Positions 7,442-28,401 of a stretch of 28,401 nt of DNA are shown piece by piece (position 1 is the first letter of the stretch; each line of letters opens with the position of its first letter). The stretch comes from a virus. Both the position numbers and the translations under genes were made by a program. The notes under the pieces are model-generated. The model ran no database searches. It saw nothing but the letters and a program-made list of their open reading frames with translations, and was not told where the DNA came from. The stretch is from the IMG/VR virus record IMGVR_UViG_3300032116_001038, positions 1-28,401 of that record; one strand, given 5' to 3'.

Positions 7442-7762
7442 ATGTCTGATCAACGCTACTTGTCAGTAGTCAGCGATGGAACTCCTGGCAACAGTTTCAT
7501 CTCGATGATCGACCCGACGACTGGCAAAGAGTTCACCGTAGAAGGCGTCGTTGAGTGTGTAGTAGAGATGGGTCCTAAGATGATGGTGAGCGCGCAGATC
7601 ACCGTGCGGCCGAAGGCGGTCCAGGTAGAGGTCCGCGCTGACCACACCCACTGGTCATTCGATTGCCCAGCGTGCTCCGAGCACGTCGATCACGAGTGTC
7701 GTCCACCCGACTTTGCCACCCCGCTGACCCGCATCATGGAAGCCACGAAGGAGCACAAGTGA
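7442..7762 (+). CDS. Hypothetical protein with C-terminal Cys/His cluster
   Basis: The ATG at 7442 has a strong purine-rich ribosome binding site (GGAAGGGGG) upstream. The 106-residue product has a beta-rich N-terminal half (SVVSDGTPGNSFISMIDP, then EFTVEGVVECVVEMG) and a Cys/His cluster at about 75-86 (FDCPACSEHVDHEC) that may bind zinc. I do not recognise the family. It ends in a GTGA overlap with the methyltransferase gene, so it may be co-translated with it. Confidence 0.65.
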   Translation: MSDQRYLSVVSDGTPGNSFISMIDPTTGKEFTVEGVVECVVEMGPKMMVSAQITVRPKAVQVEVRADHTHWSFDCPACSEHVDHECRPPDFATPLTRIMEATKEHK

Positions 7763-8463
7763 GCACTACTCAAGAAATCTGGCACGGCGATAGCCGTGAA
7801 CTCGCTGGCAAGGTGCCAGATGGTGTGAACTGCATCATCACCGACCCGCCTTACGGCGTGGGGTATCGGTCGAGGCACGCGACCACGCCCGAAGGGCTGC
7901 GGTACGTCGCGGACGTGGCGCACGATGGCGACCTGCTCATGGCTCGTGGACTGTTCCTCGAGGTCATGGACGAGCTCTTGCCGCGTACCGCTGACGAGTG
8001 CGAGATGTACGTCTTTACCCGCTGGGACATCGTAGGTGACTGGATCGAGACTGTTCGCTCGCTGGACAAGCATGGATTCACCTACAAGATGATGCTTGTG
8101 TGGGATAAGGGCGGGCCTGGGACTGGTGACATTGACGCGAACTGGGGTTGCGGTCATGAGATCATTCTCTACCTCAAGAAGGGTCGCCGCCCCATCCCGT
8201 CCCGCCGCAGCGGCGTCATCGCCTGCGACATGGTTCACCCGCTGAAGATCGTCCACCCCACAGAGAAGCCGGTTCCGTTGCTGACCACGCTGATCGAGAT
8301 GAGCACCAACCCTGGCGATCTGATCGTGGACCCGTTCTCGGGTTCAGGCTCGACCGCCGTGGCAGCCCAGCGCACCGGCCGTTCGGCCATCGGGATCGAA
8401 CTCGAGGAGCACTACGCGGAGATCGGGCTCCACAGGCTCGATGCTCAGGCGTTCGACTTCTAG
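7759..8463 (+). CDS. Beta-class DNA methyltransferase (N6-adenine or N4-cytosine)
   Basis: The start is the GTG at 7759, overlapping the previous stop; the frame is open upstream to 7663 but that would overlap the preceding gene. The 234-residue product has catalytic motif IV DPPY at 29-32 near the N terminus and the SAM-binding motif DPFSGSGSTAVAA at about 191-203, preceded by HPTEKP at 166-171. This order (catalytic motif first, SAM motif last) defines the beta class. DPPY favours N6-adenine but N4-cytosine is possible. The short region between gives little room for a target domain. With no paired endonuclease visible, it probably protects phage DNA from restriction or regulates expression. 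Confidence 0.9.
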   Translation: MSTTQEIWHGDSRELAGKVPDGVNCIITDPPYGVGYRSRHATTPEGLRYVADVAHDGDLLMARGLFLEVMDELLPRTADECEMYVFTRWDIVGDWIETVRSLDKHGFTYKMMLVWDKGGPGTGDIDANWGCGHEIILYLKKGRRPIPSRRSGVIACDMVHPLKIVHPTEKPVPLLTTLIEMSTNPGDLIVDPFSGSGSTAVAAQRTGRSAIGIELEEHYAEIGLHRLDAQAFDF

Positions 8464-8515
8464 CACTTTGCGTCCTACTATCCATTCGACTTCACCTCCT
8501 AGAAAGGGCACCCAC

Positions 8516-8734
8516 ATGGGAGCACAAGAGATTCATCCCTGGACCTACGGCGGCAAGGATGTCGTCAACTTCGGTCCATCGGTCCTTCCGGTTTCAGACT
8601 CGACTTTGCCTGATGTCGAGCCGCCTGCCGAGGACCTCGCAAAGATCGAGTCGGGCGTGCTCGACGATGACCCGGCAGTGCCGGCTGTCGAGCCGGAGCC
8701 TGAGTCGAAGCCGGGAAAAGTCCCTCCGGCGTAG
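8516..8734 (+). CDS. Acidic Pro/Glu-rich ORF, possible N-terminal part of a frameshifted WhiB-like protein
   Basis: The ATG at 8516 follows the ribosome binding site AGAAAGGG. The zero-frame product has 72 residues, with a short globular start (HPWTYGGKDVVNFGPSVLPV) and then an acidic Pro/Glu-rich linker ending KPGKVPPA. It has no family of its own. Near its end is the heptamer GGGAAAA in canonical -1 slippery phase (8713-8719). A -1 shift there bypasses the stop at 8732 and continues without interruption into the WhiB-like frame. It may therefore be the front half of a larger regulator as well as, or instead of, a free protein. Confidence 0.65.
   Translation: MGAQEIHPWTYGGKDVVNFGPSVLPVSDSTLPDVEPPAEDLAKIESGVLDDDPAVPAVEPEPESKPGKVPPA
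8713..8719 (+). other. Candidate -1 ribosomal frameshift slippery site (GGGAAAA)
   Basis: In the reading frame of the acidic ORF the codons are CCG GGA AAA GTC, so the heptamer reads G GGA AAA, fitting X XXY YYZ. After a -1 slip the next codon is AGT at 8719, in the frame that is open from there to the whiB-like stop at 8994. The zero-frame stop is only 13 nt downstream. A weak hairpin (CCTGC with GCGGG) lies downstream, and a GGAG is 14 nt upstream. Confidence 0.5.
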
Positions 8735-8778
8735 ACCTGCCTGCTCCTGCGGGCTTCATCTACCAGCCTGAATCGTGG

Positions 8779-8994
8779 ATGGAGCGAGCAGCCTGCGCGG
8801 GCCAAGACCCGGAACTCTTCTTCCCCGAGCGCGGCGACTCGCACCGACCTGGCAAGGCTATCTGCGCCGGATGTGAGGTAGGACCGGAGTGTCAGACCTA
8901 CTCTGTTCTGACTGGTTCTGAGTACGGCATGTGGAACGGCAGCATCAAGAAGCGACGGCGCACCGCGAACGGGAATGTCGGACCCACCGAATAG
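8779..8994 (+). CDS. WhiB-like Fe-S transcription regulator
   Basis: From the ATG at 8779 the product has 71 residues with the four cysteines of WhiB proteins: C6, C29, C32 and C38 (AACAGQDPELFFPE, then CAGCEVGPEC). The turn motif is GMWNG (50-54) instead of GVWGG, followed by a basic KKRRRT tail that would contact DNA or sigma factor. Wbl proteins hold a 4Fe-4S cluster and bind the principal sigma factor. The start is doubtful: there is no ribosome binding site, and the conserved Trp six residues before the first Cys (ESWMERAAC) lies just before this ATG. A frameshifted fusion with the upstream ORF would include it; a CTG start at 8737 is the other option. Confidence 0.88.
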   Translation: MERAACAGQDPELFFPERGDSHRPGKAICAGCEVGPECQTYSVLTGSEYGMWNGSIKKRRRTANGNVGPTE

Positions 8995-9034: not shown

Positions 9035-10174
9035 GTGATCCCTAAGTCTCTGTCTGCGACAGCAATCGCAAACTTCGAGGGATGTCCCGCGCGCTACGTC
9101 GCGGAGTCATTCCATAAGGTTCCGAGCATGAGCGGCGACGCTGCTCAGGTCGGCACCGTCATTCACGCCGGGCTCGAGGAGTTCGTGCGCGAGACGTTCA
9201 TCCTCGGCAAGCCTGACGGCGGACCTGGGTCGGTGATTGAGGCGTGCCGCGAGCCCTACCGTTCCGCGTTCGGATCGGACGACCAGTATTGGGCCGACGT
9301 GGAGTGGATGGCCGAGCGCTGGCACGCCCGAACGGCGCATCTGCTGGCCGAGCGAGAGGTCCTGCAGGTCGAGACGAAGAACGCCTTCGCCCTCAAGACG
9401 AGCGTGGGCGACATCCCGGTCAACTACATCTTCGACCGGATCGACCGGCTCCCCGACGGCAGCATCGAAGTCACCGACTACAAGAGTATCCGTGCTCGCC
9501 TTGCCCCCGCCGACCTCGAGGGCAAGATTCAGCCTCGGCTCTACGCGCTCGCCGCGCAGTTGGAGCACCCAGAAGCGGAAGCGGTCTGGGTGAACTTCGA
9601 CCTGCTCAGGCACGACCCCATCGGATTCAAGTTCACGCGCGATCAGAACCGCGACACGTTCCACCACTTGAAGAAGGTGGCCGAGGACATCATCGCCACC
9701 GACGAGCAGAACCCGCCCGAGACAATCAACCCCGACTGCCGCTGGTGCCTCAAGAAGCTCACCTGTTCGGCGCTGCAGGAGAACGTCCTGGCGGGCACGT
9801 CGCTGGCGATCAGCGACCCGCTCGAGGCCGCCAAGTTGCGCGTGCGCCTCGACCAGCAGGCCAAGGCCCTCGCCCTGGCGGTGGACGAGCTCGACTCGAT
9901 CATCCTCGGCTCGGCCAAGGCAGAGGACGTGACCGAGTTCGAGGACGACGAGGTGTACGTCAGCATCGGCGGCCGTCGCACACGGTCCATCGACCCGAAG
10001 CGCGTGGCCGAAATCGTCCCAGCGGAGGTCATGGCGAAGTACTCCGGTCTGACCGTGACGAACTTCGACAAGATGCTGAAGGATGATGACCTGGACCCGC
10101 AGCAGAAGTCGCTGCTCGGTGGGCTCGTCGCGTGGAAGTCGGGCGCGTCCAGCGTGTCCGTCAAGCAGAAGTGA
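9035..10174 (+). CDS. Cas4/RecB-like PD-(D/E)XK nuclease with predicted Fe-S cluster
   Basis: The start is the GTG at 9035 with GGAAG upstream. The product is 379 residues. The N terminus reads LSATAIANFEGCPARYVAE, the RecB/Cas4 helical start with C17. GTVIHAGLEEF carries His44, FDRIDRL the Asp134/137 region, and EVTDYKS the D148-x-K150 catalytic pair, followed by the QPRLYALAAQL helix. C235, C238 and C244 (CRWCLKKLTC) with C17 make the four ligands of a 4Fe-4S cluster as in Cas4 and AddB. The last 110 residues are helical and then charged. It is likely a single-strand exonuclease used in end processing or recombination. There is no CRISPR context, so it is not an adaptation Cas4. Confidence 0.87.
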   Translation: MIPKSLSATAIANFEGCPARYVAESFHKVPSMSGDAAQVGTVIHAGLEEFVRETFILGKPDGGPGSVIEACREPYRSAFGSDDQYWADVEWMAERWHARTAHLLAEREVLQVETKNAFALKTSVGDIPVNYIFDRIDRLPDGSIEVTDYKSIRARLAPADLEGKIQPRLYALAAQLEHPEAEAVWVNFDLLRHDPIGFKFTRDQNRDTFHHLKKVAEDIIATDEQNPPETINPDCRWCLKKLTCSALQENVLAGTSLAISDPLEAAKLRVRLDQQAKALALAVDELDSIILGSAKAEDVTEFEDDEVYVSIGGRRTRSIDPKRVAEIVPAEVMAKYSGLTVTNFDKMLKDDDLDPQQKSLLGGLVAWKSGASSVSVKQK

Positions 10175-10974
10175 GTCTGCAGATCGGCTCGCTGTGCTCC
10201 GGCTACGCCGGACTCGACCTCGCGGTGGAAAGCGTGCTCGAGTCTGAGACAGCGTGGTTCGTTGAGTATGACGCGGCCCCATCAAAGATTCTGTCCCACA
10301 ACCGGCCCGGCGTCCCAAATCACGGTGATGTCATGACGACTGACTGGTCCGAGTTGCCCCCCATCGACATTCTTACGGCTGGCTACCCATGTCAGCCCTT
10401 CTCGCTTGCCGGACTTCGGAGAGGACCTGAAGATGAGCGAAACATCTGGCCCTACGTCCACGACGCGGTTCGCGTCCTACGACCCCGTATCGTCGTGTTG
10501 GAGAACGTCACAGGGCACCTTTCCCTGGGCTTCGGACGAGTTCTCGGAGACTTGGCCGGAATCGGGTATGACTCAGAATGGCGTTGCCTTCGAGCGTCCG
10601 ACGTTGGTGCTCCCCACAGCCGAGCACGACTGTTCATCGTTGCTTCCGACTCCAACCACGCGCGACTGGAAGGACACAGGAAACTTCACGCCCCGACCGG
10701 AGAAGGTGAAGCTCCCGCACACGCTGGCGGTCCTTGGCAGGAGTTCGGTCCCGCGATCCGACGATGGGAAAAGGTGATGGGCCGTAGTGCGCCTCCGATC
10801 ATGGGCGCAGATGGCAACCACAACCCCGCGCTGGTCGAATGGATGATGGGACTCCCCGAAGGCTGGGTTACCGACGTGCCTGGGCTGTCCCGCAAGGACA
10901 AGATCAAGGCCCTCGGAAACGGTGTAGTCCCGCAGCAGGCGGCAGCGGCAATCGAACGGATGGTGCCAGCATGA
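10171..10974 (+). CDS. C5-cytosine DNA methyltransferase (first of two)
   Basis: The GTG at 10171 overlaps the nuclease stop (GTGA). The product is 267 residues. Motif I is GSLCSGYAGLDLA; motif IV GYPCQPFSLAG holds the nucleophile Cys74; motif VI is ENV at 111-113; motif VIII is HSRARLF at about 149-155; and motif X is GNGVVPQQAAAAI near the C terminus. The target region between VIII and X is short, and NPALVEWMMGLPEGW precedes the final motifs. It makes 5-methylcytosine, probably against host restriction. A second, well-formed ORF overlaps its middle in another frame. Confidence 0.93.
   Translation: MSLQIGSLCSGYAGLDLAVESVLESETAWFVEYDAAPSKILSHNRPGVPNHGDVMTTDWSELPPIDILTAGYPCQPFSLAGLRRGPEDERNIWPYVHDAVRVLRPRIVVLENVTGHLSLGFGRVLGDLAGIGYDSEWRCLRASDVGAPHSRARLFIVASDSNHARLEGHRKLHAPTGEGEAPAHAGGPWQEFGPAIRRWEKVMGRSAPPIMGADGNHNPALVEWMMGLPEGWVTDVPGLSRKDKIKALGNGVVPQQAAAAIERMVPA
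10433..10777 (+). CDS. Possible overlapping gene inside the cytosine methyltransferase (114 aa)
   Basis: The frame +1 relative to the methyltransferase is open through 10777. The ATG at 10433 has GGAGAGG eight bases upstream, a better ribosome binding site than most genes here. The product has the segments SSCWRTSQGTF, ETWPESGMTQNGVAF and LLPTPTTRDW, patterns I recall from hypothetical phage proteins found with cytosine methyltransferases. This cannot be verified here. The same bases encode conserved methyltransferase motifs VI-VIII, so the similarity could be a shadow of a conserved nucleotide sequence. Real but unproven is the fair reading. Confidence 0.35.
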   Translation: MSETSGPTSTTRFASYDPVSSCWRTSQGTFPWASDEFSETWPESGMTQNGVAFERPTLVLPTAEHDCSSLLPTPTTRDWKDTGNFTPRPEKVKLPHTLAVLGRSSVPRSDDGKR

Positions 10975-12098
10975 CGATCATCGACCTGTTCGCCGGTCCT
11001 GGGGGCTGGGACGTTGGGCTCGAGATGCTGGGACGTTCGGCCTACGGAATCGAGTGGGAGAAGTACGCCGTCCAGACCCGCATCATGGCCGGACACGCCA
11101 CAGAGAAGGCGGACATCGCCCTGCTCGACCCCACCAACTACCTGGCCGGCGGCCCAGTGGAGGGCTTGATCGCCAGCCCCCCGTGTCAGGCGTTCAGCCT
11201 TGCGGGAAAGAGGCTGGGCCACGACGACAAGCCCCTGTGCTACAAGGCGGCTGACGAGTTGGCTGAGGGGGGTGACCCTCGTGAAGATGTACTGCCTTTG
11301 TGTGGCGACCCCCGAAGCCTGCTTGTTGTGGAGCCGGTCCGCTGGGTTCGTGACCTGCGGCCGACGTGGATCGCTCTGGAGGAGGTGCGCGCAGTCGAAC
11401 CGCTCTGGGAGCACTACGCGACGATCTTCCGCGCCTGGGGATACCACGTCTGGACTGGCGTTCTGAACAGCGCTGACTACGGAGTCCCGCAGACTCGCGA
11501 GCGCATGATCCTCATGGCGCACCGCGAGAGGGAAATCGGACCTCCTCCCCCGACCCATTCCCGCGACGGTGGAGCGGGGGAGGACCTTTTCGGTGACGAC
11601 CGGAAGCCCTGGGTCACGATGGCTCAGGCGCTCGGGTGGGGCATGACAGCCCGACCCAGCGTGACGGTCATGGCGCGCACCCACGACCCCGAGACGGGCC
11701 GAACGTCGGGCGGCGTGCGTCCGCTTGACGGCGGCTCAGGTGCGCGGGCCACGCTCGCCAGCGCCAGGGAAACCGGCGAGTGGGAATCGAAGCCAGCCTG
11801 GGCGCACGAGCGTCCCAGCACGACCATCGTCGGGTCTTTTCGTCCCGATAAGGTGGCAGCACCAGGATGGCGCAAGCCCGGCGATCCGCCCCGACAGGAC
11901 ACGCCCGACTCGGTGACTATCGACGTGACCGAGGCTGGCGTCCTTCAGTCGTTCCCCGCCGACTACCCCTGGCAGGGGCCGCGCACCCGGCAGTTCGAGC
12001 AGGTCGGGAACGCCGTTCCACCTCGACTTGCTGCCCACGTTCTCGCTAGGCTCCTGGGTATCGACCCGACTGAGCCAATCGAGAAGTTCTATGAATGA
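10971..12098 (+). CDS. C5-cytosine DNA methyltransferase (second of two)
   Basis: The ATG at 10971 overlaps the first methyltransferase stop (ATGA). The product is 375 residues. Motif I is DLFAGPGGWDVGLE at 5-18; motif IV SPPCQAFSLAG holds nucleophile Cys72; motif VI is EEV at 137-139, where the usual ENV has Glu for Asn but keeps the catalytic Glu; motif VIII is QTRERMI at 174-180; and motif X is QVGNAVPPRLAAHV near the end. The target region is longer than in its neighbour and includes ERPSTTIVGSFRPD. The two enzymes differ in sequence and probably methylate different sites. Confidence 0.93.
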   Translation: MTIIDLFAGPGGWDVGLEMLGRSAYGIEWEKYAVQTRIMAGHATEKADIALLDPTNYLAGGPVEGLIASPPCQAFSLAGKRLGHDDKPLCYKAADELAEGGDPREDVLPLCGDPRSLLVVEPVRWVRDLRPTWIALEEVRAVEPLWEHYATIFRAWGYHVWTGVLNSADYGVPQTRERMILMAHREREIGPPPPTHSRDGGAGEDLFGDDRKPWVTMAQALGWGMTARPSVTVMARTHDPETGRTSGGVRPLDGGSGARATLASARETGEWESKPAWAHERPSTTIVGSFRPDKVAAPGWRKPGDPPRQDTPDSVTIDVTEAGVLQSFPADYPWQGPRTRQFEQVGNAVPPRLAAHVLARLLGIDPTEPIEKFYE

Positions 12099-13049: not shown

Positions 13050-16000
13050 TCAGCGAATCGCCGCTCGGCGCATGAGGTCGGTGCCGATGGTCGCCGCCAG
13101 CCTCTCGGCCGCGTAGGAGTATCCGGCCTGGGTCAGGTGGTAGCGGTCAGCGCTTGCGTACCTGTCCGAGTTGCCGTTGCCAATCGGAGTTCCGAAGTCT
13201 CCGGTTCCATTCGTAAAGTCTGTCGCCTTGACGAAGGTACATCCGTAGTTGGCGCAAGCCGTCTGAATGTAACCCTCAATGGACTCCATCGCGGAACGGT
13301 ACTGGCTTCCGGGCACGATGCCACCGATGCCGTAGATCGTGGCGTTAGGCAGCAAGGCCCTTGCGTTCGCGAAGTAGGAGTTCACGGCAGTCTGCACGGT
13401 TCCGAGCGAGTAGCCAGCGTCATTGACAGAGCCAGCCACGGTGACGACATCTGGGTTCAGGGGCACTACCGATGCGGCGAAGCGCGCCTGGAACGTCTGG
13501 ACGGTGCCGCTCTGGTTGTTGACGAAACCGGAACCGGAGACGACATCGTTGTGGACGTTCATGCCCATCATCTTCAGCGCTCGGTTGTAGAGCGACCAGT
13601 GCCCGAAGATGCTGGCACCGCCACCTTCATTCGAGTAGTCGTAGCCGAAGGAGTCAGACTGGCAAACCGCACGCAAGCCGGCGTATCGCTGCGAGCTCCA
13701 AATCGTGTAGGTGTAGGGCACCTTGACTTGGGCCATGAGAGCGCCTTGGAGCATGAGGCGGACACGACGGTTCTTTGCCGAAGCCCAGGTGATCTTGATT
13801 CGGTGAACCGTGTTAGGCGTTCCCGAAAGGATCTGGGCGTGGGCGTTGATCCATTCGTCGTTCTCGTGGACCTGATACCTCGCCTGCAGCGGGTCACCGT
13901 TGCCGGCTGTGGTAATGACCGTGAACTCGATAGCGTTTGTATCAGTCTCGACCTCTACCTCGATGAAGTCACCGATGGTGTAAGTCCCGCCCCGCAACGG
14001 ATAGGTAGAAAGTTGCTGCCTCATGCAGTTCGTGTAGCCGAGGCTCTGGTAGTTGCCGACGTTCTCTACGGGTGATCCGAAGTACCGGAGTCGCGTGTCG
14101 TTTGCTGGCACGTCGTAGCCGGTGATCGTTGTGGCACCAGTCGTGACGGCGACAGTCGGGATCGTGGCGACCTGGATCGGCAGCCGGTTGGAGCCGTTGA
14201 TGAACGCAGTTTGCGTCGTGGTCTTGGTGATCTGGCCGTCACCACGAAGCACGTCAGACTTGCTGCCGGTCAGCGTAGGAACCAGACCAGGGGTGTTCGT
14301 GTTCGCGGGGAGCGCCTGGCTGATGACGTTGTTGCAGTTGGACCTCTTGATGAGGTTCGCGTCGGTAGGACCGTTCGTGCCACGCTGCAGGTCAAGGACG
14401 GCGTTGTTGACGTAGGTCAGATCGACTGCGCTACCAGCGTTGCCTGGGTACTGGGTGAACACGCCCGAGACGCGAACGTCGATGATCGGGTTGGTTGCCG
14501 AGCCAATCAGGCGGACACCACAGGTGTTGCTGCCCGATGTGGTGCTGTAAGGCGAGAACTGGATGTCGTTGATCTGGATGTGGAAGAACGAACTCGTCGA
14601 TGCCTTGGTGGCGTAGACGCCGACCTCAACGCCCTCACAGCCCATCCCGCTGACCTGCAGATTCGACGAGCCCGCTCCAGTCTGGAAGTCGGAGTAGATG
14701 CCGTAGGCCATGCCGGTCTGCTGCGACCCGCCACCACCAGGAGCACCCATGCCGGAGAACGCGGAGGACGTGACCCACATCCCGCCACCGGATTCCCACT
14801 GAATACCGCGAGTGCCCTGCGAGTACTTCGGGTTGCCGAAGTAGAAGGACTTGTCGATGTTCGTCCCACCGGCATCCACCCAAGCCTCGTTACGGATGCG
14901 GTGGCCGTAGCGCACCGGAGCCCAAGACTGGAGGCTTTCGATGATGACGTTGACGCCAGACACCTGATCCAGGTTGTCGTAGAACCCGGCGATCATGACG
15001 TTGTGGAGGTAGAACCCGTCTCCCACGGTGACCTTAAGGCCGCAGCCCGCCGTGGGGAGCGATCCGACAAGGGCCGTCGGAAGTGGCACCGGGAACCCAC
15101 CAAGTCCAGGCGAGACGCTGAGTGCTGCTGGCGAGTAGTTCTTGTTGTGGAGGGTGATGTTCTCGATACTGCAGGAACGAGCAGCGAACTCGAACAAGGT
15201 GGAGTTCGTCGAGGTGGTGCTGACCTTCGACACCGACTCGGAAACGCTGTACCACTCGGAGCGTCCGTCGCCACGGATCGTACAGCGCTTCGTGATCGGA
15301 GTTGTCGATCCAATGACCTTGTAGTCACCAGCAGGGAAGTAGAGCACGCCGCCGTAGGTGTTGGCGTTCAAGGCGGCGATGGCAGCGTTGATGGCGGCCG
15401 TATCGTCGGTCGAACCGTCTCCTACCGCGCCATACGTCTTGACATCCCAGACTCGAGCAGTTCCACCAGTGAGCGAGTCGGCGTAGTTCTTGTTCACCGC
15501 GTCGGTGCCAGCAGTCGGATTCGCTAGACCAGTGAGCTTGCGTCCACCGAACGCCACGTCGGCGGTTGGGGTCGCCATCTGATCGAGGCGGTTAGCGCGA
15601 ACGGCAGTATTGAAGTCACTGATGGTGGCGGCGAGCTGCGTCCCGGTGTGGTTCGACCGCTGGACGACTGAAGATGCCAGGGAAGAAATCTGCGCCCAGA
15701 CGCCACGGATCGCGAGCGTCATGCTGCCGAAGCCGGTTCCTTCGTCCTTTGCCGCGCGAAGGTCGTTACTGATGGCCTCGACCTCGGGGGCAATCGAACG
15801 GATCGAGACGGGGCCGCCCTTGATGGCATCCCAGGGAGCGTCCTCGTTGACCGGCCTCGGGTGAATCTTCGTACTAGCCGGATAGAAAGCGGAGCCCTCG
15901 GTGTAGGCGTTCACGATGGCCGTGGCAGTTACGGCGCCGGTGACCGTGGCGTCGCCAGTTCCTGGCGAGGATGCAGACCCGACGACGGTCGTGCCAGCGG

Positions 16001-17498
16001 TGACAGCGGCGGTGATCGTGCGCGACTCGGTGCCTGAACTGGCAGCGCCAATCCAGTCGGTGTCGCTAATCGCCATCTCGTCCATCTTGAGCGTCTGGCC
16101 AGAAGCGAGGATGTGTGACCAGCCAGTGCCCGAGACATACGACTGAGCGCCAAAGCGGTAGTCGTCGAAGGCACCGACGCTGCTTGTCGTGATGACGCCG
16201 GAATCGAAGTCAGGAGCGCCGTTGCTGTCTGGGTCAGTCGTCCAGACCTCCATCTGGATCGTGGTCGCGGTTACCTTCGTCTCGACCCTGAACCAGGCAT
16301 TGAGCGGCATGGAGTTGGAAGCAGACGCCCAGTTGGTCCCACCACCAGCATCCGTCGTAAAGACATCGTTGCGTCCACCAGAGACGAAGAAGGCCCTGTT
16401 GGCCTTGACGCCGGCCTGGTGGCTCTTGGTGAAGCCAGCGGCCATGAGATCAGAGAAAGATGTGTCGTTCGCCACGGCCGCCGTGAGCTTGTAGTACGCC
16501 CTGGTGTGGAAGGTTGTACCGATCTCGGACAGGTTGGTGTAGACGGCTGCCGATGCGCCGTAGGTGACAGTGGATGCCTTCGTGCCGATCTTCGCATCAG
16601 AGGTCTGAACCTGCCAGAATGTCTTCTGTAGGAAGTCGCTTGACGTGTCAAGGCAGTGAGCCGACAGCCCGCCGCGAAACAGCCCGGCGTTGACGGGATT
16701 TCCGCCGATCACCTGGGCAGCCGAGTAGCCTTCCCAACTGATCTCAGTCAGGCCGCCAGCGGTCCCCCCGCCAACCGGGTTCAGCCAAGACATCGTGTTG
16801 GGCGAGTGCGCGATGGCGTCGATGTAGGCGAAGTTGCCGGACCCGATGCAGGCGTACCCGCCAGCCGGACTCGCCTGGAAGGTGCAGATGCCAGTGAACA
16901 TTCCGCCGTTGCCACCGGAGCCGTCAATGGTTCCGTGAGTCACCAGGCCAGAATCGAAGTCTGGAGTGCCAATCGACTGCGGATCGGTCCACCAAATCTT
17001 CCCTCGGAAGGTGGTGGGGGTGTACTGCATCTCGTACCTGATCCACTGATTCAGCGGGATCGAGTTCGCAGCGCCCTCGCTGTTTCCGACGGTGCCAGCG
17101 CCCTTGCGAGTGGAAGAACTGGCGTAGCCGATGGCGTAGGGCTTGCGGTCGGTGCTGATGCCGATGCCAGAAAAGATCGTCCAGGTAGCACCCCAGTTCA
17201 TCGCCAGCAAGAAGTCGTCGCTGGGTGCGGCCGTGAGCTTGACGTAGCCCCTGACCGTTCCGGTGTTGACACTCTGGTAGTGGTAGTTCATCTCGCGCGT
17301 ACCAGAGCCACCACGGAAACAGGTGGAACCCTTGAACGGACTCGTGTTACTGAACTGGACGGTCGTGCCGTCGAACGGCTCGATGTTGACGTACCTAGTG
17401 CCGCTTACGTCGCCTTCAGCAAAGCCGACCCCGGTGTTGATCTGGGTGACCGGCCCAGTGCCGTTCGTACCCTCGAAGCTTGACCATGTAATAGCCAC
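13050..17498 (-). CDS. Receptor-binding/depolymerase tail protein (lectin-like x2, pectate-lyase beta-helix, SGNH hydrolase)
   Basis: The start is the GTG at 17498 with GGAG seven bases upstream. The product is 1482 residues. Residues 1-490 hold two lectin-like modules about 250 residues apart; NSIPLNQW (Trp152) matches NSMPLNAW (Trp402), and each has a TPDFDSG or APDFDSG string later. Residues 491-540 are Thr/Val/Gly-rich. At 683-700 VWDVKTYGAVGDGSTDDT begins a pectate-lyase-type right-handed beta-helix. The C-terminal ~200 residues are an SGNH/GDSL hydrolase: Ser1283 in SDSFG, GSVND with N1359, and D1451/H1454 in DRYHLTQAG. It probably binds host surface glycans, with the hydrolase removing acyl groups. 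It sits in the tail operon. Confidence 0.87.
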   Translation of the reverse strand: MAITWSSFEGTNGTGPVTQINTGVGFAEGDVSGTRYVNIEPFDGTTVQFSNTSPFKGSTCFRGGSGTREMNYHYQSVNTGTVRGYVKLTAAPSDDFLLAMNWGATWTIFSGIGISTDRKPYAIGYASSSTRKGAGTVGNSEGAANSIPLNQWIRYEMQYTPTTFRGKIWWTDPQSIGTPDFDSGLVTHGTIDGSGGNGGMFTGICTFQASPAGGYACIGSGNFAYIDAIAHSPNTMSWLNPVGGGTAGGLTEISWEGYSAAQVIGGNPVNAGLFRGGLSAHCLDTSSDFLQKTFWQVQTSDAKIGTKASTVTYGASAAVYTNLSEIGTTFHTRAYYKLTAAVANDTSFSDLMAAGFTKSHQAGVKANRAFFVSGGRNDVFTTDAGGGTNWASASNSMPLNAWFRVETKVTATTIQMEVWTTDPDSNGAPDFDSGVITTSSVGAFDDYRFGAQSYVSGTGWSHILASGQTLKMDEMAISDTDWIGAASSGTESRTITAAVTAGTTVVGSASSPGTGDATVTGAVTATAIVNAYTEGSAFYPASTKIHPRPVNEDAPWDAIKGGPVSIRSIAPEVEAISNDLRAAKDEGTGFGSMTLAIRGVWAQISSLASSVVQRSNHTGTQLAATISDFNTAVRANRLDQMATPTADVAFGGRKLTGLANPTAGTDAVNKNYADSLTGGTARVWDVKTYGAVGDGSTDDTAAINAAIAALNANTYGGVLYFPAGDYKVIGSTTPITKRCTIRGDGRSEWYSVSESVSKVSTTSTNSTLFEFAARSCSIENITLHNKNYSPAALSVSPGLGGFPVPLPTALVGSLPTAGCGLKVTVGDGFYLHNVMIAGFYDNLDQVSGVNVIIESLQSWAPVRYGHRIRNEAWVDAGGTNIDKSFYFGNPKYSQGTRGIQWESGGGMWVTSSAFSGMGAPGGGGSQQTGMAYGIYSDFQTGAGSSNLQVSGMGCEGVEVGVYATKASTSSFFHIQINDIQFSPYSTTSGSNTCGVRLIGSATNPIIDVRVSGVFTQYPGNAGSAVDLTYVNNAVLDLQRGTNGPTDANLIKRSNCNNVISQALPANTNTPGLVPTLTGSKSDVLRGDGQITKTTTQTAFINGSNRLPIQVATIPTVAVTTGATTITGYDVPANDTRLRYFGSPVENVGNYQSLGYTNCMRQQLSTYPLRGGTYTIGDFIEVEVETDTNAIEFTVITTAGNGDPLQARYQVHENDEWINAHAQILSGTPNTVHRIKITWASAKNRRVRLMLQGALMAQVKVPYTYTIWSSQRYAGLRAVCQSDSFGYDYSNEGGGASIFGHWSLYNRALKMMGMNVHNDVVSGSGFVNNQSGTVQTFQARFAASVVPLNPDVVTVAGSVNDAGYSLGTVQTAVNSYFANARALLPNATIYGIGGIVPGSQYRSAMESIEGYIQTACANYGCTFVKATDFTNGTGDFGTPIGNGNSDRYASADRYHLTQAGYSYAAERLAATIGTDLMRRAAIR

Positions 17499-18128: not shown

Positions 18129-18757
18129 GGCGTCACATCTCCTTGGACATCACAGTCTCCTGTGACAATGGTCAAGACATCATTCGTGCTATTGCTGGTC
18201 GCCTGAACATCGTAGACGCAACTGTTCGTGCCCAGCGGTAGCACAGCGGTAAGTGTATGGGGAAAGCGGACCCGAAGGACAGCATTGTCCATGTCCTCCC
18301 AGACCACCTCGAGGCTACCGATGGGAGCAGTCTGTCGATCAACCGCGACCGCGCCGCTCAAGTCCCAGTCTCCGGGGTTGGCGATGGGCTCGCCGGCGAC
18401 CTGCCACGTCACCCAGAAGTCACGGTCGTCACCCTGGTAGAGCCCAAGGTTCTGGGTGATCGGGAAAGCGTCGGGGTCATCGACGCCCGTCCAGAGGTCA
18501 ACCGTGACTGACCCGTCGTTCTCCAGCGTCGCCACGACGGGTCCGGTGAAGTTCACGACGCCCGCTCGGCCCACCTCAACGCCGTTTGTGGCGATGGTGG
18601 CGAACATGACCACCGTGTCGTTGTGGATGACCTGGACGACCTGAGTCGTCTCGTCATCGTGGAGAATCTCAGCGAACACGGCTCCGGTGCCGTCCGGCGC
18701 GACCTCGGTGATGAGGACCGTGCCTTCACCTGAATACTCTTCGACGATGACGGTCAT
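18125..18757 (-). CDS. Tail structural protein with LYQGDD module (210 aa)
   Basis: The ATG at 18757 overlaps the upstream stop (ATGA). The product is 210 residues. Residues 1-100 are beta-rich and acidic (VEEYSGEGTVLITEVAP and later VVATLENDGSVTVDLWTG). From 106 it holds GLYQGDDRDFWVTWQVAG, then PLGTNSCVYDVQATS and a TGDCDVQGDVTP end. The LYQGDD start and the CVYDVQ-like end are shared with the neighbouring protein at 18754, so the two contain related beta modules. It resembles the baseplate or tail modules of other phages but no specific family is certain. Confidence 0.7.
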   Translation of the reverse strand: MTVIVEEYSGEGTVLITEVAPDGTGAVFAEILHDDETTQVVQVIHNDTVVMFATIATNGVEVGRAGVVNFTGPVVATLENDGSVTVDLWTGVDDPDAFPITQNLGLYQGDDRDFWVTWQVAGEPIANPGDWDLSGAVAVDRQTAPIGSLEVVWEDMDNAVLRVRFPHTLTAVLPLGTNSCVYDVQATSNSTNDVLTIVTGDCDVQGDVTP

Positions 18758-19167
18758 CGCGTCACCTGGGCCTCGCAGCGGACCTTGCCCTTGAGGTAGG
18801 TATCAACCAGCCCACCAGGAGCGGTGATCTGAACGTCCCAGACCCAGTTCGGGCACTTGGAGTCCAGGGTGCGACCGCTGGCGTGCGTAGCCTGCACAGC
18901 GGCCGTCTCGAGCCCGCTCAACGTCAGCAGGCATCCACCAAGAGTCGCGCCTGACTGCGCCGCGAGCGTCGGCGTGAACTCAGCCATGACGCTCTCGTCG
19001 GATTCTGACTTTCGCACCTGTGCCTTGATGACGTGGTTGGTCAGGTCGAGGTAGGCACCAGGAACCCAGACCTCGTTGATGTCGTCCCAAGTGGCCGAAC
19101 GAAGGCGAAAGAAGTACGAGTAGTCATCGCCCTGGTACAGGGTGATGTGTGACGCGCCTGGAATCAT
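18754..19167 (-). CDS. Tail structural protein with LYQGDD module (137 aa)
   Basis: I chose the ATG at 19167 with AGGAGGCGGAAG upstream; a longer reading from 19239 would enter the intergenic region and the neighbouring gene. The product is 137 residues: ITLYQGDDYSYFFRLRS at 8-24, YLDLTNHVIKAQVRKS in the middle, and NWVWDVQITAPGGLVDTYLK before a GKVRCEAQVTR end. It looks like a single beta-sandwich module, paralogous to the second half of the neighbouring 210-residue protein. It probably forms part of the tail tip. Confidence 0.72.
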   Translation of the reverse strand: MIPGASHITLYQGDDYSYFFRLRSATWDDINEVWVPGAYLDLTNHVIKAQVRKSESDESVMAEFTPTLAAQSGATLGGCLLTLSGLETAAVQATHASGRTLDSKCPNWVWDVQITAPGGLVDTYLKGKVRCEAQVTR

Positions 19168-19189
19168 CTTCCGCCTCCTACGAGGTTCG

Positions 19190-19223
19190 AGGCTAACACA
19201 GTCTTTTGGGCGGGACCAGCATC
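19190..19223 (-). promoter_or_regulatory. Candidate late promoter/regulatory element GATGCTGG-N20-TAGCCT (copy 1)
   Basis: On the - strand GATGCTGG (19223-19216) is followed after exactly 20 bases by TAGCCT (19195-19190) and then CGAACCTCG. The same layout occurs at 21305-21272. It starts at the stop codon of the upstream gene and ends just before the ribosome binding site of the next. TAGCCT fits a TANNNT -10 hexamer, but a standard -35 is not obvious. Confidence 0.4.
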
Positions 19224-19579
19224 TATGCGGGGTCGGCATTACCCTTCAGGCTGGCGATCTCGTCGCGCAGATGCCGAACCTCTTTGCGAAGGTCCTCGAG
19301 TTCTGTGGACAGCCTGGCGATCATGTACTCGGACTGGAGAGCCTTGGACTCGGCGGCAATCCGCAGCCTAACCTCGGCCTGGAGTTCGTCCCGCAGGGTT
19401 TCAGCGTCCTCTACGGCATCGTTGCGCTCCTTCGTGAGCCGGTCCATGTGGTCACGAGTCTCGCCCGACAGTTGCGCGCGATCCGAAGATCGCGCCTTGA
19501 TGAGGGTGACGATGATGACGGCAAGAGCGCCGAAGAACCCGCCTGGGACGAGGAGTTGGCCGAGATCAAGTCCCTCCAT
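19223..19579 (-). CDS. Membrane-anchored coiled-coil protein, lysis cassette
   Basis: The ATG at 19579 overlaps the end of the upstream membrane gene by 14 bases. The 118-residue product has one membrane helix at about 10-28 (LLVPGGFFGALAVIIVTLIK) and then a long charged helical segment (about 35-112) with heptad-like Leu and Ala spacing. It contains RDHMDRLTKERNDAVEDAE and ends in a short GNADPA tail. This is a predicted N-terminally anchored coiled coil. Its place beside the endolysin suggests a role in lysis (holin partner, antiholin or spanin-like protein); the role is inferred. Confidence 0.75.
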   Translation of the reverse strand: MEGLDLGQLLVPGGFFGALAVIIVTLIKARSSDRAQLSGETRDHMDRLTKERNDAVEDAETLRDELQAEVRLRIAAESKALQSEYMIARLSTELEDLRKEVRHLRDEIASLKGNADPA

Positions 19580-26769: not shown

Positions 26770-28401
26770 TTAGGCCGCCTTCGCTGCGATTGCCTTGAGG
26801 TTGTCGATGAACTCCTTGGCGTCCTCGCCGCTGTTGATGTTCGGGAACTCGAGGTCGCCGTGGAAGTGAATCTCCGTGTTGTTCTCCACCTTAGCGGTGC
26901 GGACGAAGCCACTCTGGCTCTTGGCGCGTACCGCAGCGTTCATCGCGTTCTTGCGGAGCATCTGACCCTTGTCAACGTCTCCGATGGCTCGGGTCGCCTG
27001 TGCGAGCAACTTCAGGGCGTTCCCACGGTAAGCCGGGTCGGTCGGGATCACGAACTCTGGGAAGCGCTTACGGCCTTCGCCCACGAGCGCGGGACCGTTG
27101 GTGATGCCACCTGTCGCGAAGCGCGGAATCCTCGGCATCCCCACGTCAATCGTCGGGAAGGTGAAGTCACCGAAGATGGTGTCCACCTTCCAGCCGCCGA
27201 TCTTGATGCGTAGCCCGTTCCACTTGTCGATGATCCAGTTGAGGGCACTCTTGAAGGCATCCTTGATGCCGTCCCACATGCCAGCAACCTTGCTGGTGAT
27301 CTTCTCCTTGATGCCGCTGAAGGCGTTAGCGATCTTCTGGGGCAAACCAGTCGCCCAGGTCATGATGGCTGACCACTTCTCGACAGCCTTGTCCTTGAAC
27401 CACTGGAAGGCGTCTCGAGCGACGGCCGCAACCTTGTCTCGGAGCGACATCAGGGCTTCCCACGTCTTTGCGGGGCGCTCCTTCAGCCAGGTCCAGATGT
27501 TTGTCCAGCCCTCCTTCTGCCTGGTGATGAACCAGTTCCAGGCGTCGGCGGCGATCTGCTTCACCTTGTCGCGCAGCGTCATGAGCGCTTCCCACGTCTT
27601 TGCGGGGCGCTCCTTCAGCCAGGTCCAGATGTTTGTCCAGCCCTCCTTCTGCCTGGTGATGAACCAGTTCCAGGCATCCGTGGCGATCTGGGCAACCTTG
27701 TCGCGCAAGGTCATCAGGCCGTCCCACATGGCCTGCGGACGCTCGCTCACCCAGGTCCAGATGGTTGACCATGCGGTCTTTGAGTTCTCCCAGAACCAGT
27801 TCCAGGCTTCGGTGGCAAGCGTCGCGAGCTTTTCGCCGAGGGTCGCCAGGCCCTCGATGAACTTGCCGGGCAACTCGGTGATCCAGGTCCAGGTCGCATC
27901 CCACGCGATGCCGAGCGCGGTGGTGAACATCCCCCACGCGGCGGTGATCCAGTCCCACAGCATCTGCCCGAACGCGGCAATCGCAGAGATGATCTTGCCT
28001 GGCAGGTCGATGAAGAACTGCAGGATGGCCGGCCAAGCCTTCACGATGGCGTCGAGGAGCTTCGCCATCATCTCGACTGCCCAACTGACGAGCATCTGGA
28101 TGAGGCTCCACACCGCGTCGATGACCTTCTTCGGCAGCGACAGGAACCAGTCGATGATCGCCATAATCATGTCGGGGATGATCGAGTGACCGACCAACTC
28201 GTCCCACAGGAACGTGAACAGGCCGATGATGCCGTCGATCAGACCGCGCACGATGCCGATGAGAACGCCGGGGATCGCCTTGAACAGACCCCAGATAGCG
28301 TCGAGCGCGCCGGAGAAGATGAGCTTGATGCCCTCCCAGGCGGCGCTCAGGTCGCCGGAGAAGATTCCGGTGATGAACAGAATGATTCCGTGGAAGATGT
28401 C
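26770..28401 (-). CDS. Tape-measure protein, C-terminal part (5' end outside the window)
   Basis: The frame remains open beyond the GTG at 28251 to the right edge, so the gene starts outside the window. The 543 visible residues are helical and aromatic-rich, with WDELVG, AWGMFTTALG and many Trp/Phe. Seven 44-residue repeats run from about 28167 to 27244. The C-terminal part is a hydrophobic and then polar domain with a beta-rich ending (NTEIHFHGDLEFPNI, DAKEFIDNLKAIAAKAA), a common tape-measure end. It sets tail length and is expelled during DNA entry. The tail genes follow directly. Confidence 0.9.
   Translation of the reverse strand, partial: DIFHGIILFITGIFSGDLSAAWEGIKLIFSGALDAIWGLFKAIPGVLIGIVRGLIDGIIGLFTFLWDELVGHSIIPDMIMAIIDWFLSLPKKVIDAVWSLIQMLVSWAVEMMAKLLDAIVKAWPAILQFFIDLPGKIISAIAAFGQMLWDWITAAWGMFTTALGIAWDATWTWITELPGKFIEGLATLGEKLATLATEAWNWFWENSKTAWSTIWTWVSERPQAMWDGLMTLRDKVAQIATDAWNWFITRQKEGWTNIWTWLKERPAKTWEALMTLRDKVKQIAADAWNWFITRQKEGWTNIWTWLKERPAKTWEALMSLRDKVAAVARDAFQWFKDKAVEKWSAIMTWATGLPQKIANAFSGIKEKITSKVAGMWDGIKDAFKSALNWIIDKWNGLRIKIGGWKVDTIFGDFTFPTIDVGMPRIPRFATGGITNGPALVGEGRKRFPEFVIPTDPAYRGNALKLLAQATRAIGDVDKGQMLRKNAMNAAVRAKSQSGFVRTAKVENNTEIHFHGDLEFPNINSGEDAKEFIDNLKAIAAKAA
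27244..28167 (-). repeat. Seven tandem 44-residue repeats in the tape-measure protein
   Basis: Counting from the GTG at 28251, a conserved Pro after Leu or Arg sits at 40, 84, 128, 172, 216, 260 and 304, always 44 apart, and Trp marks the unit starts at 73, 117, 161, 205, 249 and 293. The fifth and sixth units are nearly identical in DNA: 27455-27543 and 27587-27675 match base for base with an offset of 132 bp. That pair is a recent duplication; the other units have diverged. Confidence 0.85.

Follow-up and report, generated by a model that had tools for sequence, protein, structure and literature searches.

Among double-stranded DNA phages, tail assembly genes supply most known cases of conserved -1 frameshifting. 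Programmed -1 frameshifting in the phage tail assembly chaperone genes was described by Xu, Hendrix and Duda (2004, as cited in PMC4524720 and PMC5506516). The locus analyzed here comes from an IMG/VR virus record (28,401 bases, 62% G+C), and this whole stretch of DNA is hereafter called the window. The locus resembles the tail chaperone system in the X XXY YYZ heptamer late in an upstream ORF, in the predicted -1 fusion product, and in being carried by a tailed phage. It differs in that the predicted product is a WhiB-type regulator encoded in a region of DNA metabolism rather than beside the tape measure gene. The tape measure gene of the window is found at 26770-28251 on the opposite strand, and the WhiB locus sits between a methylase and an exonuclease.

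The WhiB-like (Wbl) family, including the WhiB protein of phage TM4, has been reviewed (PMC6282962), and TM4 WhiB lowers expression of the host whiB2 gene (PMC6282962). Proteins of the window type share with this family (PF02467) a Trp residue, four Cys residues, a G[IVM]W turn, and a basic tail. They would differ from known Wbl proteins in being made by frameshifting, in being extended by an acidic N-terminus, and, for the majority of members, in having an extra Cys module. A 2021 survey of actinophage WhiB genes (PMC8612146) does not mention frameshifting. No report of WhiB frameshifting was found in the open-access literature, in agreement with the preliminary description of this DNA, which knew of no WhiB-like protein made in this manner.

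The acidic ORF and the WhiB frame in the window

The features of the locus and its two neighbours are as follows.
7756-8463, + strand: DNA N6/N4 methyltransferase, the upstream neighbour, also near the locus in many relatives
8501-8508, + strand: Shine-Dalgarno-like AGAAAGGG, read from the sequence, which would start the acidic ORF
8516-8734, + strand: upstream acidic ORF in the zero frame, 72 amino acids, from the ATG at 8516 to the TAG at 8732-8734
8695-8698, + strand: GGAG, 14 nt 5' of the heptamer, a possible Shine-Dalgarno-like internal stimulator (suggestive)
8704-8994, + strand: -1 open frame with WhiB, opening after the TGA at 8701-8703 and ending with the stop at 8992-8994
8713-8719, + strand: slippery heptamer GGGAAAA, in phase as G GGA AAA
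8726-8800, + strand: possible downstream RNA structure beginning 6 nt past the heptamer, -33.3 kcal/mol, z -1.25, not significant
8732-8734, + strand: stop of the unshifted frame
8749-8778, + strand: AGFIYQPESW, the family motif AxFxxxxExW before the first WhiB Cys, encoded only by the -1 frame and upstream of the ATG at 8779
8776-8961, + strand: predicted WhiB (Wbl) domain with Trp, four Cys, and a GMWNG turn
8779-8781, + strand: ATG that a gene finder would pick, without a ribosome binding site; its use removes the conserved Trp
9035-10174, + strand: Cas4-type PD-(D/E)XK exonuclease, the downstream neighbour and the syntenic gene used to find relatives

The preliminary description placed GGGAAAA in exact slippery phase inside the acidic ORF, and the codons CCG, GGA and AAA (X XXY YYZ) bear this out. 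It was also correct that a -1 slip enters an uninterrupted frame running to the WhiB stop, this frame being open from 8704 to 8994; the shifted product of the window would be read in the -1 frame from 8719 to the stop at 8992-8994. Between 8704 and the Trp codon at 8776 the WhiB frame contains no ATG, GTG or TTG, and the CTG at 8737 is the sole near-start ahead of that codon. Direct reading of the window sequence found no Shine-Dalgarno-like sequence ahead of the ATG at 8779, as had been stated. The further claim that the conserved Trp is encoded only by the shifted reading holds as well, with the Trp codon at 8776 preceding this ATG and the PF02467 match starting there. In a codon-usage scan the favoured frame changed from 2 to 1 within 8710-8740, and frame 1 was already favoured upstream of the ATG at 8779.

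The putative -1 product of the window is a Wbl protein by its profile match, the arrangement of its Cys residues, the G-M-W turn, and the predicted fold. The Pfam WhiB (PF02467) match has an E value of 2.8e-18 and a score of 61.5-61.7 bits against a family cut-off of 23.6, and its beginning at the Trp codon falls outside the ORF that starts with the ATG at 8779. Four Cys residues are present, the second to fourth with C-x2-C-x5-C spacing, and the G[VI]W turn of the family reads YGMWNG in the window; the Cys, Trp and Gly columns are invariant in the alignment with the window included. The AlphaFold model (mean pLDDT 68.6) matches a Streptomyces WhiB structure (8dy9_H, E 1.3e-4) and WhiB1 (6onu_G, E 7.6e-4).

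In-phase XXXYYYZ heptamers occur eight times in the 7015 codons of the window genes (0.11%), with strong heptamers at about 0.03%, and the chance of an in-phase heptamer in a 10-codon overlap is p ~0.003-0.011. The lysine codon AAA accounts for just 9 of the 265 Lys codons in the window genes. The in-phase heptamer in the window is real, but by itself only mildly improbable.

Relatives in phages and metagenomes

A tblastn search with the WhiB part matched Gordonia phages, and each match crosses two annotated genes. The acidic protein alone found no relative as a tblastn query, and a DNA-level search of the window region against phages gave nothing useful. The window exonuclease has 118 phage relatives, from Gordonia (105), Tsukamurella (6), Rhodococcus (6) and Bacillus (1) phages. 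The layout shared with relatives is an acidic ORF followed by WhiB in the -1 frame, usually near a Cas4-type exonuclease, and is found in Gordonia, Tsukamurella and Rhodococcus phages as well as in metagenome phages. More than 100 sequenced phages of the three genera appear to share the frameshift-WhiB arrangement. At E 1e-8 or better, 113 phage records match the -1 product of Orchid, and 94 records cover at least 80% of the -1 product of Monty. The N-terminus of the acidic ORF in the window, EIHPWTYGGKDVVNFGP, aligns with the xxPxxF...DFRP N-terminus of relatives. The genes around the locus belong to DNA metabolism, with a methylase or a RusA resolvase upstream and the Cas4-type exonuclease downstream.

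All 22 phage loci that were read place WhiB in the -1 register relative to the upstream ORF and have an in-phase heptamer. The heptamer is CCCTTTA in Woes, PokyPuppy, Monty, SteveFrench, GTE7, TIN2, TIN4, Demosthenes and Katyusha, and CCCAAAA in Reynauld, Orchid, RobinSparkles, Gibbles, Trogglehumper, ReqiDocB7, GMA3, Jumbo, GordDuk1, GordTnk2, Camerico, Mbo2 and Perlina. A start codon ahead of the conserved Trp is lacking altogether in most relatives. An ATG is present four residues ahead of the Trp in GMA3, GordDuk1, GordTnk2 and Jumbo, and a GTG 28 residues ahead of it in Orchid-type phages, so that separate initiation of WhiB is also possible in these. Compared for a one-frame fusion, a normal start, or a kept heptamer, as had been proposed at the outset, the relatives with this gene all keep the -1 register and the in-phase heptamer, and no one-frame acidic/WhiB fusion was found in any relative examined.

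Sampling that was blind to the heptamer yielded a total of 31 loci (22 phage, 9 metagenome), and 31 of 31 carry an in-phase CCCTTTA or CCCAAAA at the junction. Five loci (L074, L120, L127, L136 and L140) were found only by search patterns that contained the heptamer and were therefore left out of this count; L138 was matched by a heptamer pattern and was also found without the heptamer. A WhiB-alignment scan found L148 and L152, and a Trp-motif scan found L144. A scan with the exonuclease alone (alignment A5), blind to both WhiB and the heptamer, returned ten loci, eight of them with a complete WhiB upstream; in all eight testable loci no start precedes the Trp, WhiB is in the -1 register, and CCCAAAA is in phase. 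New among these were L309, L311, L312, L314 and L316 (n=5). The exceptions were L313, which is truncated, and L315, which is without WhiB. The L315 phage contig (1-1640) carries a methylase and the same exonuclease with a short basic ORF instead of WhiB, a gene order that we read as loss of the frameshift gene. As a single-sequence query the Cas4-type exonuclease found no viral contig relative; the alignment query succeeded. Alignment A1 was too divergent for scanning, and a scan of genome contigs returned mainly host WhiB genes and no further frameshift member. The comparison set, 152 WhiB ORFs each having its own start, included seven with an in-phase XXXYYYZ, mostly of the GGGCCC/CCCGGG types and of the A-type in only two.

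In the 22 phage loci, the -1 frame directly after the heptamer encodes C[TNS]G[IVA]C and then C-x-C-G-E/H-G; in most of them these Cys motifs are followed by the AxFxxxxExW motif and then WhiB. A conserved C-x3-C...C-x-C module precedes WhiB in nearly all relatives, and a short form without it is found in the window and in L148. The module, C-x3-C...C-x-C-G-E-G, could be metal-binding; no claim is made on its fold because the pLDDT is below 50. An ACSCG string encoded by the window's third frame (~8742-8756) was considered as a relic of the module; no single event accounts for this frame, and chance is the probable cause. The Cys-rich insert between CTGIC and CTCGHG is much longer in Trogglehumper (L048, 857-1495) than in other members.

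L148 (1256-1698, IMGVR_UViG_3300034137_000009) is a sister of the window, with CCCAAAA in the place of the window GGGAAAA. Its order is an acidic ORF with ...FDFRPRPVDEPEVEPEPVPK, the CCCAAAA heptamer, a short overlap, no Cys module, and then WhiB and the exonuclease. GGGAAAA is absent from the close relatives of the window contig, of which L148 is the nearest. The frameshift members cluster in a tree of WhiB domains (2 label changes vs 22 in shuffles), in which internal resolution is weak and the window takes no definite place.

The heptamer as the probable point of entry and the rival explanations

In Orchid, Gibbles, GordDuk1, GordTnk2 and L138 a -1-frame TGA abuts the heptamer (TGACCCAAAA), and therefore no earlier entry into the -1 frame exists there; the Cys module of these five genomes starts at most four codons past the heptamer. 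The seven heptamer bases are invariant in both alignments, though they include wobble positions of both frames, and -1-frame third positions just outside the heptamer mostly vary. CCCTTTA invariably contains the Leu codon TTA, although these phages use it at a frequency of only 0.5 per 1000. Among the more diverged pairs, conservation is mostly higher in the -1 frame than in the zero frame (0.50 vs 0.28 for GTE7/Monty, and 0.73 vs 0.51 for ReqiDocB7/Perlina), and close pairs have similar conservation in both frames. Possible RNA stimulators were also considered. The 24 nt 5' of the heptamer pair with the anti-Shine-Dalgarno sequence at a median of -9.3 kcal/mol vs -3.7 kcal/mol for random windows, but the signal weakens to p = 0.015 against codon-order shuffles of that stretch, for sequences that are not independent. 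Pseudoknot-free folding found no conserved downstream hairpin among relatives.

The gene structure, its conservation, the register, the in-phase heptamers, and the constraint on the -1 frame were established computationally. Programmed -1 frameshifting is almost certainly the best explanation for this family of actinophage loci. At the window locus, ribosomal frameshifting of this kind very probably yields a fusion of the acidic N-terminus with WhiB, and it is highly likely to operate in the window contig despite the contig's distinct heptamer and its short form, the rarer of the two. An alternative is that WhiB is a separate gene read from the ATG at 8779 (or the CTG at 8737) and coupled to termination of the acidic ORF, with the heptamer being incidental. 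The ATG does open an ORF of 71 amino acids, and annotators chose starts of this type in Mbo2, Reynauld, Demosthenes and others. This start, however, lacks a ribosome binding site and drops both the conserved Trp and the AxFxxxxExW motif, and the Mbo2 record marks ribosome binding sites for nearly all neighbouring genes but none for the WhiB ORF. Separate initiation also fits poorly with relatives, most of which are startless before the Trp and have a conserved -1-frame Cys module far upstream, and with the in-phase heptamer of 31/31 loci; we consider it improbable.

The preliminary description had cautioned that an error in the G/A run would look the same, and in one sequence a single-base indel or assembly error that splits an ordinary one-frame fusion gene is indeed indistinguishable from a frameshift site. 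The same register nevertheless recurs in many independently sequenced phages and contigs with three different heptamers, and no relative has a one-frame fusion. Because register and heptamers are found in more than 30 independently obtained sequences, a one-base sequencing error was ruled out as the cause, and such an error in the window contig itself is very unlikely. Slippage of RNA polymerase on the run, rather than of the ribosome, would likewise give mixed frames from a homopolymer. Tracts prone to such slippage are far longer than the runs of merely three or four bases seen here, and the conserved X XXY YYZ codon phase is needless for a transcriptional event, making this the least probable explanation, with next to no weight.

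Under programmed frameshifting, the locus would be one gene decoded two ways. Most ribosomes would read from the ATG at 8516 to the TAG at 8732 and make the 72-amino acid acidic protein, and some would shift back by a single base at the G GGA AAA of 8713 and read on in the -1 frame as far as 8994. The shifted protein would have about 159 amino acids, comprising the acidic N-terminus and a complete WhiB-like domain including the conserved Trp; in most family members the C-x3-C...C-x-C-G-E-G module would be inserted between the slip site and WhiB. The occurrence of slippage, its efficiency, the binding of an Fe-S cluster, and the regulatory role are inferred. The likely function is that of a predicted [4Fe-4S], sigma-A-binding phage regulator made in a constant, low proportion relative to the acidic protein. 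A likely role of the WhiB-type product in the window, by analogy with TM4 WhiB, would be to redirect host transcription. Rather more tentatively, and with well under even confidence, this actinophage lineage may set the dose of a regulator by frameshifting, with the shifted frame adding a second Cys cluster, decoding choosing between a two-module metal-binding regulator and the acidic N-terminus, and slippage efficiency possibly serving as an infection switch. A conserved frameshift at this position would determine how much of a transcription factor is made, and the Wbl family would gain a new Cys module. The cultured phages Monty, Woes, Orchid and TIN4 allow direct testing.

Annotation of the locus and other genes of the window

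Public records name the zero-frame ORF 'hypothetical' or 'endonuclease', and no support was found for the endonuclease label. The zero-frame ORFs of Monty and GordDuk1 match phrog_6890 ('endonuclease') and phrog_14812, and phrog_11832 (33 amino acids, function not given) matches the C-terminal end of the WhiB product. By these matches, three families treated as unrelated would be fragments of a single frameshifted gene. WhiB is unannotated in the PokyPuppy, GTE7, TIN4, SteveFrench and Camerico records, and in the Woes record it is started too late, leaving 33 amino acids, the length of phrog_11832. Wrong gene calls at the locus are found, for example, in records L035, L036, L038, L050, L053 and L305. 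The frameshift reading would change the annotation of more than 100 genomes, in which WhiB is absent, shortened or split and the N-terminus is sometimes called an endonuclease, and surveys of phage WhiB genes built on such annotation will have miscounted these loci.

Three further observations concern other parts of the window. An isolated CCCAAAA is located at 19204-19210 (- strand), ahead of where the 18754-19239 ORF likely starts, and is probably intergenic and meaningless. Tandem C5 cytosine methyltransferase genes are found at 10132-10974 and 10839-12098 (+ strand), with an apparent ATGA-type overlap if the second gene starts near 10971. A protein of 1482 amino acids encoded at 13050-17498 (- strand) has a pectate-lyase-like region and a C-terminal GDSL lipase domain, and is probably a tail or capsule-degrading protein.
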